Below, one piece after another: positions 26,229-32,110 of a DNA stretch of 64,000 bases. Below the pieces are notes generated by a model. It made no database searches. It was not told where the DNA came from and saw only the letters and a program-made list of their open reading frames with translations. How positions within the stretch are numbered: position 1 is the first letter of the stretch; every line of letters starts with the position of its first letter. The position numbers were made by a program, and so were the translations under genes. This stretch comes from Flavobacteriales bacterium (GTDB lineage Bacteria > Bacteroidota > Bacteroidia > CAIKAF01): the NCBI GenBank assembly GCA_025451235.1, contig JANWKT010000028.1, forward strand, positions 1 through 64,000, given 5' to 3'.

Positions 26229-26960
26229 CTACATCTTCATCTTCTTAAACATTCCTTCCGGAATAGAAGTAATGATCCTCATGATATACTTCCACATCCA
26301 TAAACTAAACAATACATTTTTCTTTTTCGCCGCGGCCTTAAAAATATCCTTGGCTATTTTTTGAGGAGTGGCGGTTAATTTTGGGTTCAAAGGCATACCC
26401 TGGGTCATAGATGTTTTAATGAAACCAGGTTTTACCGTTAACACATGTACACCACTGTGAAAACACTTATTCCTTAACCCGCTTAAATAGGCGGTAAAAC
26501 CTGCTTTAGCACTTCCATATAAGAAATTGGATTGTCTTCCTCTTTCACCGGCCACTGAGCTTATTCCAATAATGGTCCCGTGTTTTCTTTCCATCATATT
26601 CGAGGCAATAACATTTAAAATGCTTACCGCACCGGTATAATTAATATGTAATATTTGTTCTGCCTCTTTCCAATTGGTTAACCCCTTAGCGGTATCACCC
26701 AAGTATCCAAAAACGCAGGCCACCATATTGGGTTCATAGGGCAAATTCTTGTAAAAATCAAAATGCGATGTAAAGTTAAGTGCATCAAATTCTACTGCAA
26801 CGGCTTTTATATTGTACCTGATCTCCAGGTCCTTTTGCAAAGGCTCTAATCTCTCTTTCTGGCGGGCCGCCAACTGAATATTGTACCCGTTTTTTGCATA
26901 TTCATGAGCCAGGGCCTGGGCCACATCACTCATGGCACCTAGAATAAGAATGGATGACAT
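26229..26960 (-). CDS. SDR oxidoreductase, DprE2-like (polyprenyl-phospho-2-keto-pentose reductase)
   Basis: The protein has 243 residues with a Rossmann-fold NAD(P) site 'LILGAMSDVAQALA'. Catalytic residues are Ser135, Tyr148 and Lys152 in 'ISSVAGERGRQSNFLYGSAK'. From memory this stretch closely resembles mycobacterial DprE2, which reduces decaprenyl-phospho-2-keto-erythro-pentofuranose to the arabinose form. DprE1-like and UbiA-like genes on the same strand 1.7 kb upstream support that role. The open frame extends 25 codons further (27035) through repeat-like sequence. I chose Met at 26960 because it directly precedes the first beta strand. The specific substrate is inferred. Confidence 0.8.
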   Translation of the reverse strand: MSSILILGAMSDVAQALAHEYAKNGYNIQLAARQKERLEPLQKDLEIRYNIKAVAVEFDALNFTSHFDFYKNLPYEPNMVACVFGYLGDTAKGLTNWKEAEQILHINYTGAVSILNVIASNMMERKHGTIIGISSVAGERGRQSNFLYGSAKAGFTAYLSGLRNKCFHSGVHVLTVKPGFIKTSMTQGMPLNPKLTATPQKIAKDIFKAAAKKKNVLFSLWMWKYIMRIITSIPEGMFKKMKM

Positions 26961-27041
26961 GGATCTTGATTTAGGGACTAAAGATAGTTGTTTTTGGGCA
27001 ACCCCGCCTCCTAAGCTGGCCAGCCCACTATCCACGGCGGG

Positions 27042-27105
27042 TCGGGCTATATGCGGTAGTCCTCCCCAGCAAAAGCTGGGTCCGGGCTACTTGCTTCTAT
27101 CCCTG
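27042..27105 (+). repeat. GC-rich dispersed repeat, copy 1
   Basis: It begins TCGGGCTAT (27042-27050), has TCCTCCCC at 27060-27067 and ends CTATCCCTG at 27097-27105. The same three blocks in the same order occur on the minus strand at 40493-40425. An internal hairpin is possible (CCCAGC-AAAA-GCTGGG). It lies between the divergent DprE2-like and secreted-protein genes. Confidence 0.6.
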
Positions 27106-27150
27106 TTGCAGAGGGAAAAAATAATTTACATATTACACACGTTATACTGT

Positions 27151-27768
27151 ATGATGAAAACACCTAACATCCAACATTTCTTTTTATTCCTGCTTTATTT
27201 CACCACCACTTCCTTGCTAGCGCAGACCTATAAGTCTGATGGTGGATTTAATGGTGGCAGCCTCGAATTAAAAGGCAACACCTATTCGTTCGTACAATGG
27301 TTTTGTACGGGGCAATATTTTTCGAAAGGGACTTTTATCCGAAAAGGCGATACGCTTTATTTAACCTCTTCAGCCGAATATGATGACAGAGAATTAAGGA
27401 TCGCTCCAAAGTGGATAGAGGAATCGGATTCAATCAGGGTATCTATAAAATTAAGGGGTGAACACCAAATGTCTGATTTTCAACATGCCATTATTAGTTT
27501 TGTGGGTAAAGATAGTATTGGCATCAAATTAGAAGGCCATCAAAATATCTCCATTCCCATTTCTTTTTTACCCATCCACGAAATATATTTCGATCAAAAA
27601 AGGGTTTCCCTTTTTTTTGCATGCAACGATTTTGTTATTCACTATTACAAACCATATGAAGGACAATTTGTGAGGATGGTAAATGAACCGTTCATCAGCA
27701 GGGGGAATAGCATACATCCCTATCATTCGAACACCTGGGGATACCTATGGATGGAGACGAGTGATTGA
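27151..27768 (+). CDS. Hypothetical secreted protein
   Basis: The protein has 205 residues. The signal peptide (MMKTPNIQHFFLFLLYFTTTSLLA) sets the start at 27151. The open frame reaches back to 26932 but that part is antisense to the reductase and crosses a GC-rich repeat. The mature part begins 'QTYKSDGGFNGGSLELKGNT' and is rich in beta-like alternation with several Ser/Thr/Asp turns. No catalytic motif or family is recognised. It interrupts the strand order of the Dpr-like genes and converges on the transposase gene 22 bases away. Confidence 0.65.
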   Translation: MMKTPNIQHFFLFLLYFTTTSLLAQTYKSDGGFNGGSLELKGNTYSFVQWFCTGQYFSKGTFIRKGDTLYLTSSAEYDDRELRIAPKWIEESDSIRVSIKLRGEHQMSDFQHAIISFVGKDSIGIKLEGHQNISIPISFLPIHEIYFDQKRVSLFFACNDFVIHYYKPYEGQFVRMVNEPFISRGNSIHPYHSNTWGYLWMETSD

Positions 27769-27790
27769 TGTCTACCTTTGAGGACCATCA

Positions 27791-28243
27791 TTAATCCCAA
27801 ACATATTTCTCGTCATAATCCACCTTATACTTTTTCAAAAAAATTCTGTATTCATCTTGAAAGGTTTTCTTTTTATGGTGCTCTTCTTGGTTCTCGATAT
27901 ATGCTTTTACTATATCCAACTGGGTAGGGTTAACTGAAAAAGCTCCATATCCATTCTGCCAATAGAAATCCTTCAGCAAATAGTTTTTGGTTTTGATCCA
28001 CTTGGATGAGCTGGCTTTTATCTCTGCCACAAGTTTCATCAAAGCAATTTTCTTCGACATCATACATAATATATGTACGTGATCTACATGCCCGCCAACT
28101 TGTATTGGATGGCATTCCAAATTTTTGCAGATCCCTCCTAGGTAGTGATATAATTCTTCTCTTACAGAATGATGGATAAGAGGATTTCTATATTTCGTAC
28201 TAAAGACGATATGAATATAATTCTTTACTAATGATTGTCCCAT
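27791..28243 (-). mobile_element. IS200/REP-associated (Y1, HUH) transposase
   Basis: The protein has 150 residues and appears intact. It carries the Y1 transposase HUH motif His55-Val56-His57 in 'GGHVDHVHILC'. The probable nucleophile is Tyr115 ('VKAYIENQEEHH') with Gln119. 'YWQNGYGAFSV' is the conserved IS200-like segment. Such enzymes cut and join single-stranded DNA at hairpins. Its upstream side (28252-28513) holds nested inverted repeats typical of such elements, and no accessory TnpB is present. It is either a short IS200-like element or a domesticated REP-associated transposase. It lies between the DprE1-like and DprE2-like genes. Confidence 0.88.
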
Positions 28244-28675
28244 AGTTATGTCGCCCTTTCAGGGCTCGGTTTGGTGAATGCTTCCAGCCCGAGGGATCCT
28301 CCCCCGGTTAAATGATGTGGTCCTTTCAGGACTTCAGCTCTTATGCCCTTGACAAAAAAGTTGGTAGGTATCATTTGGATAATATATAAGTCTTAGAAAA
28401 ATTCTACAAGATTTTTTGTATTTTTTATTACAGTCCTGAAAGGACATCATCAGGTAACATAGGTCGAAGGCCTATGTGATGCAATATCCAATTACCTAAG
28501 CCCTGGAAGGGCGGCATAAAGCACCAGCGATGTGAAGGGGAAGCTCCGCCATGGATTTAGGAGCAGGCCTGGCGGGGAGGCGAGCCGGAGTGAAGCGAAG
28601 CCCGGAACATAGCGGTGGTAAGTGGATGTTGAGGTATGCTTGAGGGAATCGAGCCAGGTGCCCAAAAAAAACAAA
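28244..28675. repeat. Nested inverted repeats beside the transposase, plus GC-rich block
   Basis: Outer pair: CGCCCTTTCAGGGCT (28252-28266) and AGCCCTGGAAGGGCG (28499-28513). Inner pair: GTCCTTTCAGGACT (28320-28333) and AGTCCTGAAAGGAC (28432-28445), each next to ATGATG/CATCAT. A small hairpin, ACATAGG/CCTATGT, lies at 28458-28478. The remainder (28514-28660) is a GC-rich block with no credible gene. The arrangement fits transposon ends or REP units mobilised by the adjacent transposase. Confidence 0.7.
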
Positions 28676-30013
28676 CTAAACATGCGTCAACTTAACTCGA
28701 TCAGATTGTACCGAAGAAAATTTATAGCCAGGATTGAGCAACCTGATCTTGTCCATAAAATCTTTGGCCTGTGGATATGATTTTACCAATGTATCATGCT
28801 TCATTCTTACATCCTTGGTGAGATAAACCCTTCCACCGTATTTCAACACCAGTTCATCGAGTTCATCTAAAAAATTCCAGAGCTTTGGATTGATCTTAAA
28901 ATCCAACGCCAACGTGTACCCTCCTCTTGGAAAACGAATAAAATTTTCCTCCTGCTCACCAAATAGTTTAAGCACCGTTAAAAATGATCCCATTTTACGT
29001 TGGCCTATTCTTTCGATAATAGCAATCAAACCTTCCCTGCTGGTTTCGGGTGGTAAAACAAATTGATATTGGGTAAATCCATTTTTCCCATAAATGCGGT
29101 TCCAATGTAGAATGGCATCCAACGGATAATAAAAAGTTTCGTAATGAACAATGGAGTTCTTTAATCCTCTTGGATGTTTATTATAATAGAGGAAATTAAA
29201 GGCTTTTACGGATAAGCTGTTGAGTGTAAACGATGGCAGGTCGAACGGAACGAACAATTTCCCGTCTTTATGTGTTTTAAGAGGGTTTGATCTTTGTGCC
29301 GCTGTTTTTAATTCATCCACCCTGGCAAATTCTCCCCGCATCATAATACTTCTACCCAAAGATTTCCCTTTTGCCAGACAATCTATCCAAGCCACGCTGT
29401 TCGTCCATGATCCCGACTCCTCAAAAATCTTCATGATCTCGTCCAGGTTTTTTGCTTTGATGGATTCCTGGCGGATATAAGAAGTTTCGATAGGGAATAA
29501 TTGGAAACAAACTTTGGTGATCAATCCGGTAAGTCCCATACCTCCACAGGTAAGGTTGAACAATTCGGCATTCCCCTCCTTGCTGCAAATTTTTATTTCG
29601 CCGGTTGGAGTAATGATCTCCATCCAATGTACATGATCCGAAAAAGTTCCTTCAGCATGATGATTTTTCCCATGGATATCAGATGCGATGGCTCCTCCAA
29701 CCGTAATAAATTTGGTTCCGGGGGTTACCGGCATAAACCAACCCTTAGGAACAAATAATCGGATCACCTCTTCAAAAGTCACACCTGCTTCACAGGTAAG
29801 CAATCCTTTTTCAGCATCAAACGCTAATAAATGGTTGAGTTTTAGAGTGGACAATATATTTTTACCCAATGCTGAATCTCCATAGCAACGGCCCATTCCA
29901 CGAGGAATGACTTGTTTTTTTTCATGGATGAGCTCAATATATTTTTCTGAATTGTTGTATTCAAAAACATCTGCTTCTATTTCAGGATATTTTCCCCAGT
30001 TCGCAACTTTCAT
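28676..30013 (-). CDS. FAD-linked oxidase, DprE1-like (polyprenyl-phospho-ribose 2-oxidase)
   Basis: The protein has 445 residues with a PCMH-type FAD domain at about residues 10-180. FAD contacts are 'RGMGRCYGDSA' and 'GGAIASDIHGKNHHAEGTF'. The C-terminal substrate domain has 'GGYTLALDFKI' and 'GGRVYLTKDVR'. Order and motifs match mycobacterial DprE1, which oxidises the ribose 2-OH of decaprenyl-phospho-ribose. By my alignment from memory, the benzothiazinone-reactive Cys387 corresponds to Ala369 and the catalytic Lys418 to Lys400. The gene follows the UbiA-like gene by 3 bases, and a DprE2-like gene lies further down on the same strand. I infer synthesis of a polyprenyl-phospho-D-arabinose-type donor. 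Confidence 0.85.
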   Translation of the reverse strand: MKVANWGKYPEIEADVFEYNNSEKYIELIHEKKQVIPRGMGRCYGDSALGKNILSTLKLNHLLAFDAEKGLLTCEAGVTFEEVIRLFVPKGWFMPVTPGTKFITVGGAIASDIHGKNHHAEGTFSDHVHWMEIITPTGEIKICSKEGNAELFNLTCGGMGLTGLITKVCFQLFPIETSYIRQESIKAKNLDEIMKIFEESGSWTNSVAWIDCLAKGKSLGRSIMMRGEFARVDELKTAAQRSNPLKTHKDGKLFVPFDLPSFTLNSLSVKAFNFLYYNKHPRGLKNSIVHYETFYYPLDAILHWNRIYGKNGFTQYQFVLPPETSREGLIAIIERIGQRKMGSFLTVLKLFGEQEENFIRFPRGGYTLALDFKINPKLWNFLDELDELVLKYGGRVYLTKDVRMKHDTLVKSYPQAKDFMDKIRLLNPGYKFSSVQSDRVKLTHV

Positions 30014-30016
30014 TCT

Positions 30017-30895
30017 CTATTCACTCTTATTGATATACAACAACACAGCAAAGGATAAAATAAATCCTACCAGGATTAATTGAATAAAAATGTCCTTCAA
30101 TAAAATTTTGGTTGGGTTCCCGCTATTTTCTTTTACAAAAGTAATTTGGAGGTATCTTAATACACCCAATATTACAAAAAGACTCGTAAAATATAAATGG
30201 TTTCCGAGTCTTTCCACCACCTCATCGGATAGGGTGTACATGATATAGGCCACAATGGTTACTCCCCCCATGATGACCATACCAGCATTGATAAATTCCA
30301 GGTTATAACCATCGATGGATTTTCTCATTTTTTTACCACTTTCCATAAAGATCTTTACGTCATCCCGGCGTTTGGCCAATCCAAGAAATAATGCTAATAA
30401 GAAAGTCATTAGCAGGATCCAATGAGAAACAAAAATATCGGGTATTACACCTCCTGCCACTACTCTGAGTACAAAACCAATAGCGATGATAGAAATATCC
30501 AGCAAGGGGACATGCTTTAATTTGAGTGAATAAGCCAGGTTCATTAGAAAATATATGGCCAAAACCAATAAGAAGGCAGGCTGTAACCAATAAGCAATGA
30601 TCATGCTAATGACCAATAATCCAATGGCCAATATGACTCCGGATATTATTTTAATATTACCAGCCGCAAAGGGTCTGTTCTTTTTTTCGGGATGCAGGCG
30701 GTCTTCCTCCACATCTTTAACGTCGTTGATAATATAAACTACAGATGCAGTTAGGGAGAAACACATAAATCCAATGGCTATATCCAGAACGGCTAAAGCA
30801 TGTTCTATAAAAAGGCCACTAAAAAAAAGGGGTAAAAACAGGAAGAGGTTCTTCGTCCAATGAGAAATTCTTAGGAGTTGATAGTAGCTCTTCAT
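30017..30895 (-). CDS. UbiA-family prenyl-phosphate phosphoribosyltransferase-like protein
   Basis: This is an integral membrane protein of 292 residues with about nine hydrophobic helices. The first Asp-rich motif is 'NDVKDVEEDRLHPEKKNRP' (Asn57 to Pro75), the form I associate with decaprenyl-phosphate phosphoribosyltransferase (Rv3806c type) rather than quinone prenyltransferases. The second motif region is 'LGLAKRRDDV'. Such enzymes join PRPP to polyprenyl phosphate at the inner face of the cytoplasmic membrane. It is the first gene before the DprE1-like oxidase (3-base gap) and divergent from the epimerase. No separate phosphatase gene is visible nearby. Confidence 0.85.
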   Translation of the reverse strand: MKSYYQLLRISHWTKNLFLFLPLFFSGLFIEHALAVLDIAIGFMCFSLTASVVYIINDVKDVEEDRLHPEKKNRPFAAGNIKIISGVILAIGLLVISMIIAYWLQPAFLLVLAIYFLMNLAYSLKLKHVPLLDISIIAIGFVLRVVAGGVIPDIFVSHWILLMTFLLALFLGLAKRRDDVKIFMESGKKMRKSIDGYNLEFINAGMVIMGGVTIVAYIMYTLSDEVVERLGNHLYFTSLFVILGVLRYLQITFVKENSGNPTKILLKDIFIQLILVGFILSFAVLLYINKSE

Positions 30896-31048: not shown

Positions 31049-32110
31049 ATGAGCTTTCCCCAGGGAAATAAAGTATTGGTAACAGGAGCAGCCGGTTTCA
31101 TAGGTTTTCATACGTGTAAAAGGCTTGTGGGGATGGGTTTTGATGTAACCGGATTCGACAGTGTGAATGATTATTATGATCCTTCACTAAAATGGGCCAG
31201 GCTGAGAGAGCTGGGTGTAGAAAAAGAGGACAAGATTTTCTTTAACGAGCTTACCACCCCCCATTTTAAATTTGTAAAAGGTGATCTATCGGATAAATCG
31301 ATCATCGACCGGATCTTTGCGGAAGGTAAGTTTGATCTGGTGATCAACCTGGCGGCACAGGCCGGTGTAAGATATTCATTGACCAATCCGCAGGTATACA
31401 TCGACAGTAATATTACAGGTTTTGTAAATATTTTAGAAGGCTGCCGGAACCATCCCGTAAAACACCTGGTTTTTGCCAGCACTTCATCAGTATATGGTTT
31501 AAACGGCAAGCTGCCTTTTTCGGTGAAAGACAATACCGATCATCCCATTAGTTTATATGCATCCAGTAAAAAGGCAAATGAGTTAATGGCACATTCCTAT
31601 GCCCACTTGTTTGGGATCCCTTGTACAGGGCTGCGCTTCTTTAGTGTTTATGGCCCCTGGGGAAGACCTGATATGGCTTTATTTATTTTTGTAAAACATA
31701 TATTAGAAGGTAAACCCATTGATGTTTATAATAATGGACAAATGAAAAGGGATTTTACCTATATCGATGATATTGTGAGTGGTATTTATAATGTAATGAT
31801 CAAACCCCCGGTCCCTAATCCAAGCTGGGATACTGTTGAGCCCGAAACTTATACCTCATCCGCTCCCTATAAAGTAATGAATATTGGTAACCAATCGCCG
31901 GTGGAACTACTTGACTTTATTGTTGAAATAGAAAATAATCTGGGGAAGAAAGCCATTAAAAACATGATGCCCATGCAGGCCGGGGATGTACCTGCCAATA
32001 TAGCTAATGTGGATGAGCTCATTGCAGAGTATAACTATAAGCCCAATACACCGGTGAAGACGGGTGTAAAAAATTTCGTAGATTGGTACATGAAATTTTA
32101 CCATTCATGA
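31049..32110 (+). CDS. NAD-dependent epimerase, probably UDP-glucuronate 4-epimerase
   Basis: The protein has 353 residues of the extended SDR class. The cofactor site is 'LVTGAAGFIGFHTCKRL'. The 'NLAAQAGVRYSLTNPQVYIDSN' segment, the catalytic Ser/Tyr/Lys ('STSSVYG', 'YASSKKANE') and 'LRFFSVYGPWGRPDMALF' are the pattern of UDP-glucuronate 4-epimerases (GAE/LpsL). It would supply UDP-galacturonate for capsule or lipopolysaccharide. A dTDP-glucose dehydratase is less likely because the Asp-Glu active-site pair is absent. Its position opposite the UbiA-like gene suggests a shared glycan-precursor theme. Confidence 0.85.
   Translation: MSFPQGNKVLVTGAAGFIGFHTCKRLVGMGFDVTGFDSVNDYYDPSLKWARLRELGVEKEDKIFFNELTTPHFKFVKGDLSDKSIIDRIFAEGKFDLVINLAAQAGVRYSLTNPQVYIDSNITGFVNILEGCRNHPVKHLVFASTSSVYGLNGKLPFSVKDNTDHPISLYASSKKANELMAHSYAHLFGIPCTGLRFFSVYGPWGRPDMALFIFVKHILEGKPIDVYNNGQMKRDFTYIDDIVSGIYNVMIKPPVPNPSWDTVEPETYTSSAPYKVMNIGNQSPVELLDFIVEIENNLGKKAIKNMMPMQAGDVPANIANVDELIAEYNYKPNTPVKTGVKNFVDWYMKFYHS

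Follow-up and report, generated by a model that had tools for sequence, protein, structure and literature searches.

A locus for a predicted polyprenyl-phospho-D-arabinofuranose donor of the mycobacterial kind in a Flavobacteriales genome

Introduction

In mycobacteria, decaprenyl-phospho-arabinose is supplied and used by a pathway comprising Rv3806c, Rv3807c, DprE1, DprE2 and AftB. A more general three-component scheme for pentofuranose glycosylation was described by Kelly et al. (2024, PMC11127046), in which a PPPRS, a phosphatase and an optional epimerase (DprE1/E2 for arabinofuranose, Araf) are combined with a flippase and a GT-C glycosyltransferase. Here, a locus from a Flavobacteriales bacterium (GCA_025451235.1) is compared with these systems. 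The DNA that was analyzed, called the window, comprises positions 1-64,000 of the forward strand of contig JANWKT010000028.1. The locus at positions 26229-30895 encodes a UbiA protein, a DprE1-like flavin adenine dinucleotide (FAD) oxidase and a DprE2-like short-chain dehydrogenase/reductase (SDR), and it very probably represents the donor-forming half of a system for pentofuranose glycosylation in the periplasm and follows the polyprenyl-phospho-D-arabinofuranose route.

The UbiA, DprE1-type and DprE2-type proteins and their active sites are conserved between the mycobacterial pathway and this locus, and an AftB-like GT-C protein is encoded in the same genome. Unlike in mycobacteria, the phosphatase is of the HAD type and not of the PAP2 type of Rv3807c, the benzothiazinone cysteine C387 is replaced by alanine, the genes are partly scattered and stand outside an arabinogalactan context, and the carrier lipid is expected to be undecaprenyl phosphate. 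With the systems of Kelly et al. (Citrobacter ORF12-15, GT136; PMC11127046) the locus shares a PPPRS-type UbiA protein, a HAD-type phosphoribose phosphatase, auxiliary DprE1/E2 proteins and a GT-C protein, but here the phosphatase is separate and not fused, the GT-C candidate is AftB-like and the locus lies outside an O-antigen cluster. A PPPRS together with a phosphoribose phosphatase, one of the features of a three-component system, is found in the UbiA protein of the window and a HAD protein on contig 36, and the case fits the general scheme as a new member.

Identification of the three proteins

The UbiA protein scored 242.3 bits (E 7e-72) on NF008977, the model for decaprenyl-phosphate phosphoribosyltransferase, and thereby passed its cut-off of 234. 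Further models for this enzyme gave 199 and 167 bits and a HAD-UbiA fusion model 188 bits, and the best clearly different UbiA family reached only 54 bits. In the comparison with the solved mycobacterial enzyme (PDB 8j8j, E 4e-37) the motif for metal and phosphoribosyl pyrophosphate (PRPP), NDxxDxxxDRxHPxKxxRP, was aligned. NDVKDVEEDR aligns with NDVRDVEADR of 8j8j, so that the NDxxDxxxD motif, which is needed for activity in ORF15 (PMC11127046), is present. Six UbiA proteins are encoded in the genome, and the best of the five others scored 19 bits on NF008977. These results support the assignment as a PPPRS-type enzyme, with PRPP and polyprenyl phosphate as predicted substrates and polyprenyl-phospho-ribose-5-phosphate as predicted product.

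The oxidase scored 414 bits (E 8e-124) on the DprE1 model NF053785, at most 57 bits on any other family, and matched solved DprE1 in the PDB with E 4e-82. It is 38% identical to M. tuberculosis DprE1 over 405 aligned residues, and in the alignment it retains Y60, H132, K134, W230, Y314, Q334, Q336, K367 and K418 of the M. tuberculosis enzyme, of which H132, K134, Q334, Q336, K367 and K418 belong to the active site. C387 corresponds to Ala369, and alanine at this position has been reported in naturally resistant M. avium (PMC6015584), which predicts that the oxidase is insensitive to covalent benzothiazinones. In a phylogenetic tree, M. tuberculosis DprE1 was nested among the oxidases of the operons described below and the seven other FAD oxidases of the genome fell outside, with a support of only 78 for the split and very long outgroup branches.

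For the SDR, the best model was NF005489 (PRK07102) with 322 bits (E 3e-96), above its own cut-off of 267. DprE2 was its nearest match in the PDB (E 1e-31), followed by a chain with E 3e-15. In the tree the SDR formed a group with M. tuberculosis DprE2 and the SDRs of the other operons (support 100/99), and five generic SDRs encoded in the same genome fell outside this group. Three proteins of the mycobacterial kind had been predicted at this place in a sequence-only reading of the window, and this prediction is borne out by both the models and the solved enzymes.

Divergent DprE1-like oxidases of 500-517 aa with 31% identity were observed at two further loci (L095 and L096, in genomes G128 and G164). 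They adjoin SDRs that are not members of the DprE2 clade, and perhaps form a different epimerase pair with them.

Conservation of the operon and distribution

Among loci from the genome collection, UbiA, DprE1 and DprE2 are encoded compactly as an operon in Cytophagales, Chitinophagales, Saprospiraceae and Weeksellaceae, and variants of the operon occur in Kiritimatiellota, Nitrospirota, Verrucomicrobiota and Pseudomonadota. Of the 30 loci, 23 also include a HAD-family phosphatase; 15 of these 23 belong to close Epilithonimonas/Chryseobacterium relatives and carry lower weight. At locus L030 the phosphatase is fused to UbiA (HAD-UbiA), and at L086 a divergent PAP2 protein (DUF212; L086:10356-10787) lies between UbiA and DprE1, where it likely substitutes for the HAD phosphatase. 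The recurrence of a phosphatase of varying type, as a separate HAD protein, a HAD-UbiA fusion or a divergent PAP2 protein, fits the need for removal of the 5-phosphate.

To determine the distribution, 247 genomes were sampled evenly across the Bacteroidota phylum. DprE1 was found in 51 genomes and this type of UbiA in 88. All but one of the DprE1 genomes also contained UbiA (50/51; no UbiA match in 1/51). Counted from the listed coordinates, UbiA and DprE1 lie within 2 kb on the same strand in 40 of the 51 and are apart in 10. Within the order of the window, DprE1 was present in 15 of 16 genomes. Copies of the set are also found on plasmids, many of them in Rhizobium. A lipid-linked sugar of this type had been regarded as uncommon outside Actinobacteria and a few pilin or Nod-factor systems; rarity is not supported, because the set occurs in about one fifth of the sampled genomes of the phylum, in nearly the whole order of the window, in members of other phyla and on plasmids. 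UbiA occurs without DprE1 in 38 genomes (such as G004, G055 and G172), and these may make only polyprenyl-phospho-ribose.

It was also considered whether the three proteins serve unrelated metabolism, as a sugar-lactone oxidase, a quinone or heme prenyltransferase and a generic SDR, and are neighbors by chance. Such paralogs are indeed encoded in this genome, with five further UbiA proteins, seven further FAD oxidases and additional SDRs. However, the families are hundreds of bits apart, the paralogs of the SDR and of the oxidase fall outside in the trees, and the association of UbiA with DprE1 recurs in 40 of 51 genomes, which makes this explanation extremely improbable. The sequence-only reading had named in advance, as outcomes that would speak against it, a grouping of the oxidase and the SDR with unrelated alditol oxidases or generic SDRs and of UbiA with quinone or heme prenyltransferases. 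None of these was observed: the SDR groups with DprE2, the oxidase is separated from its seven paralogs, and UbiA lies above the NF008977 cut-off.

Among the plasmid-borne sets, the cluster of Flammeovirgaceae SG7u.111 also stems from the Bacteroidota and has the same gene order, with a DprE1 that is 53% identical; in contrast to the locus in the window it is on a plasmid and uninterrupted. Its NCBI record names the products decaprenyl-phosphate phosphoribosyltransferase, FAD-binding oxidoreductase and SDR. The Sinorhizobium alkalisoli plasmid (L136) carries UbiA-GtrA-FAD oxidase-SDR, thus the same enzymes in the same order with a DprE1 that is 44% identical, but has a longer UbiA, an adjacent GtrA and nodABC beside the set, that is, a Nod-factor context. 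A hypothetical protein of 401 aa accompanies this UbiA-GtrA-DprE1-DprE2 set beside nodABC. Sesbania symbionts make D-arabinosylated Nod factors, and the L136 set is a candidate for Nod-factor arabinosylation.

Candidates for the phosphatase and the glycosyltransferase

The 5-phosphatase step was absent from the sequence-only reading. A candidate gene is present in the genome: C36:48027-48605 encodes a HAD phosphatase that matches the HAD family of the operons with E 1e-73 and contains a DFDGT motif. It is located outside any glycan cluster. An FAD oxidase of 548 aa (L034:3814-5460) is encoded about 4 kb from this gene on contig 36.

As had been stated before, no arabinosyltransferase gene lies in the window, and a genome search for a GT-C arabinosyltransferase, which had been suggested as a check, yielded a candidate elsewhere in the same genome. 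Two membrane protein families, c19 and c41, recur next to the operon in relatives. A Saprospiraceae genome encodes a c41 member between dprE1 and dprE2. In a genome from the window's own family the c41 gene directly follows dprE1, and an Opitutia has one at a distance of about 2 kb from UbiA. The member in this genome is a protein of 542 aa on contig 13 (∼145.6-147.3 kb, E 6e-67). When the c41 profile was compared with the whole PDB, the single credible match was the arabinosyltransferase AftB (9dlf_C, E 2.2e-9). The contig 13 protein alone scored 18 bits (E 5e-4) on the curated AftB (GT89) model, far below its cut-off of 1050. Residues invariant in c41 (DD, E, R, T and R) resemble D62, E172, R221, T274 and R372 of AftB in order and rough spacing, to which the comparison was confined. 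The AlphaFold model of c41 had a predicted local distance difference test (pLDDT) score of 37 and was useless. Based on this remote similarity, the contig 13 protein is a candidate AftB-like GT-C arabinosyltransferase.

The c19 family adjoins the operon at eight loci. Its AlphaFold model was weak (pLDDT 50), and the top fold matches were GT-C enzymes (ArnT, OST, AftD and ALG6), none of them significant. As the transferase of this organism c19 was ruled out, since this genome gave no match to the family even at E 10. The PMT_2-like proteins, of which the genome encodes 18, were rejected as well; among the 12 compared, none resembled the GT-C proteins that neighbor the operon in relatives. Wzx/MATE-like or GtrA genes are found near the cluster in some relatives.

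Proposed pathway

In the proposed pathway, the UbiA protein would transfer ribose-5-phosphate from PRPP onto polyprenyl phosphate, and the 5-phosphate of the resulting polyprenyl-phospho-ribose-5-phosphate would be removed by the HAD phosphatase from contig 36. Inversion of C2' by the DprE1-like oxidase together with the DprE2-like reductase would then give polyprenyl-phospho-D-arabinofuranose. A flippase would bring the donor to the periplasmic face, where a GT-C transferase, probably the AftB-like contig 13 protein, would add arabinofuranose to a surface glycan. The route from PRPP via polyprenyl-phospho-ribose-5-phosphate to a 2'-epimerization of the DprE1/DprE2 type had been put forward in the sequence-only reading; the scores, the oxidase and SDR trees, the active sites and the operon of relatives support it, and D-arabinofuranose is the product predicted by homology.

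Several observations weigh against this pathway. The 414 bits of the oxidase are below the curated NF053785 cut-off of 500, for which reason the protein is named DprE1-like; none of the 247 sampled genomes attained this cut-off, and the best reached 469 bits. Similarly, the SDR scored 190 bits (E 6e-56) on the DprE2 model NF053786, below the curated cut-off of 250, and is named DprE2-like because this cut-off was missed and NF005489 was the better model. The oxidase has Val and Thr in place of S228 and N385, respectively, of M. tuberculosis DprE1. A UbiA tree that included the paralogs of this genome was saturated, with 5 to 9 changes per column along its branches, and was set aside. Furthermore, dprE2 is apart from dprE1, the phosphatase and GT-C genes are on other contigs, and no flippase or acceptor glycan was identified for this genome. 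Among open-licence full texts, no paper on D-arabinofuranose in this lineage was found, and searches of these texts for arabinofuranose or DprE1 in Bacteroidota gave nothing on point.

Alternatively, the pathway could end at, or mainly supply, polyprenyl-phospho-ribofuranose, with an oxidase/reductase pair that yields another epimer or a keto sugar and not D-arabinose. The excess of UbiA over DprE1 genomes (88 versus 51 of 247) makes ribose-only systems plausible in the phylum, ribose- and xylose-adding versions were described by Kelly et al. (PMC11127046), and the altered S228 and N385 would be in line with such a change. However, the catalytic and most of the substrate-contact residues of the oxidase are retained and the SDR falls with DprE2. 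In addition, Kelly et al. (PMC11127046) report homologs of DprE1/E2 for Araf-containing systems and an epimerase of the GalE type for the xylose system, and the AftB-like transferase in the genome argues against a ribose-only system. A ribose-based or otherwise different product is thus considered unlikely, and the D-arabinofuranose route is preferred.

On a wider scale, the evidence is evenly balanced as to whether whole Bacteroidota families, including the order of the window, bear D-arabinofuranose on a conserved surface glycan via polyprenyl-phospho-arabinose, with a transferase that is AftB-like or belongs to a second, undescribed GT-C family (c19). Such a modification of a Bacteroidota surface glycan was not described in the open-licence papers found. 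The locus extends a route that is familiar chiefly as a target of tuberculosis drugs to much of a phylum in which arabinogalactan is not made, and an undescribed arabinofuranose-bearing surface glycan is predicted, for which a phosphatase and two transferase families can be named. As cultured relatives with an intact four-gene operon exist in Epilithonimonas and Chryseobacterium, this prediction is directly testable.

Organization of the locus

The features of the locus are listed in Table 1. The start of the SDR was set at the ATG at 26960, which agrees with its homologs; the mechanically called open reading frame (ORF) opens at a GTG at 27035.

Table 1. Features of the locus and its flank, with positions in the window.
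Feature	Position	Strand	Details
UbiA-superfamily polyprenyl-phosphate phosphoribosyltransferase (Rv3806c/PPPRS type), predicted	30017-30895	-	292 aa, motif NDVKDVEEDRLHPEKKNRP
DprE1-like FAD oxidase, predicted 2'-oxidation of polyprenyl-phospho-ribose	28676-30013	-	445 aa, DIHGKNHH
DprE2-like SDR, predicted reduction of the 2-keto intermediate	26229-26960	-	243 aa, SSVAGERGRQSNFLYGSAK
IS200-like (Y1/HUH) transposase gene, between dprE1 and dprE2	27791-28243	-	PF01797 E 3e-27
Hypothetical secreted protein ORF, between dprE2 and the transposase gene	27151-27768	+	without Pfam match
Nucleotide-sugar epimerase (UDP-glucuronate 4-epimerase/GalE type), divergent neighbor of UbiA	31049-32110	+	PF01370 E 3e-54; PDB 5u4q E 3e-129

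The UbiA and oxidase genes are separated by a gap of 3 bp, and the SDR gene lies 1.7 kb beyond the oxidase gene. The claim that all three genes are on one strand was correct, but they do not form a contiguous operon here, because the transposase gene and the plus-strand ORF intervene. This raises the question whether the cluster is decaying, with an operon split by the transposase and a pathway that is nonfunctional in this organism. The inserted IS200-like gene and unrelated ORF, as well as the unlinked phosphatase and GT-C genes, would fit such a decay. However, all reading frames are intact and the active sites are retained. A metagenome-assembled genome of the same genus has a transposase homolog at the identical position together with intact UbiA and DprE1, dprE2 is unlinked in related genera too, and dprE1 is kept in 15 of the 16 genomes of the order. 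Decay is therefore very unlikely, and a functional donor locus remains the preferred explanation.

No counterpart of the hypothetical secreted protein ORF was found in the cluster of any relative examined, and this ORF is outside the pathway. The epimerase gene is a conserved divergent neighbor of UbiA in 11 of 14 relatives of the window's family. Its substrate type, which we take from the motif NDYYDxxLKxxRL, is presumably that given in Table 1, and its conservation hints at a possible (surface) polysaccharide context. Short palindromic repeats of the CCTTTCAGG type are present at 28248-28458, with 27-nt arms that are 85% complementary and 98 nt apart. They adjoin the IS200-like transposase gene and resemble the repetitive extragenic palindromic (REP) elements of a REP-associated tyrosine transposase (RAYT).

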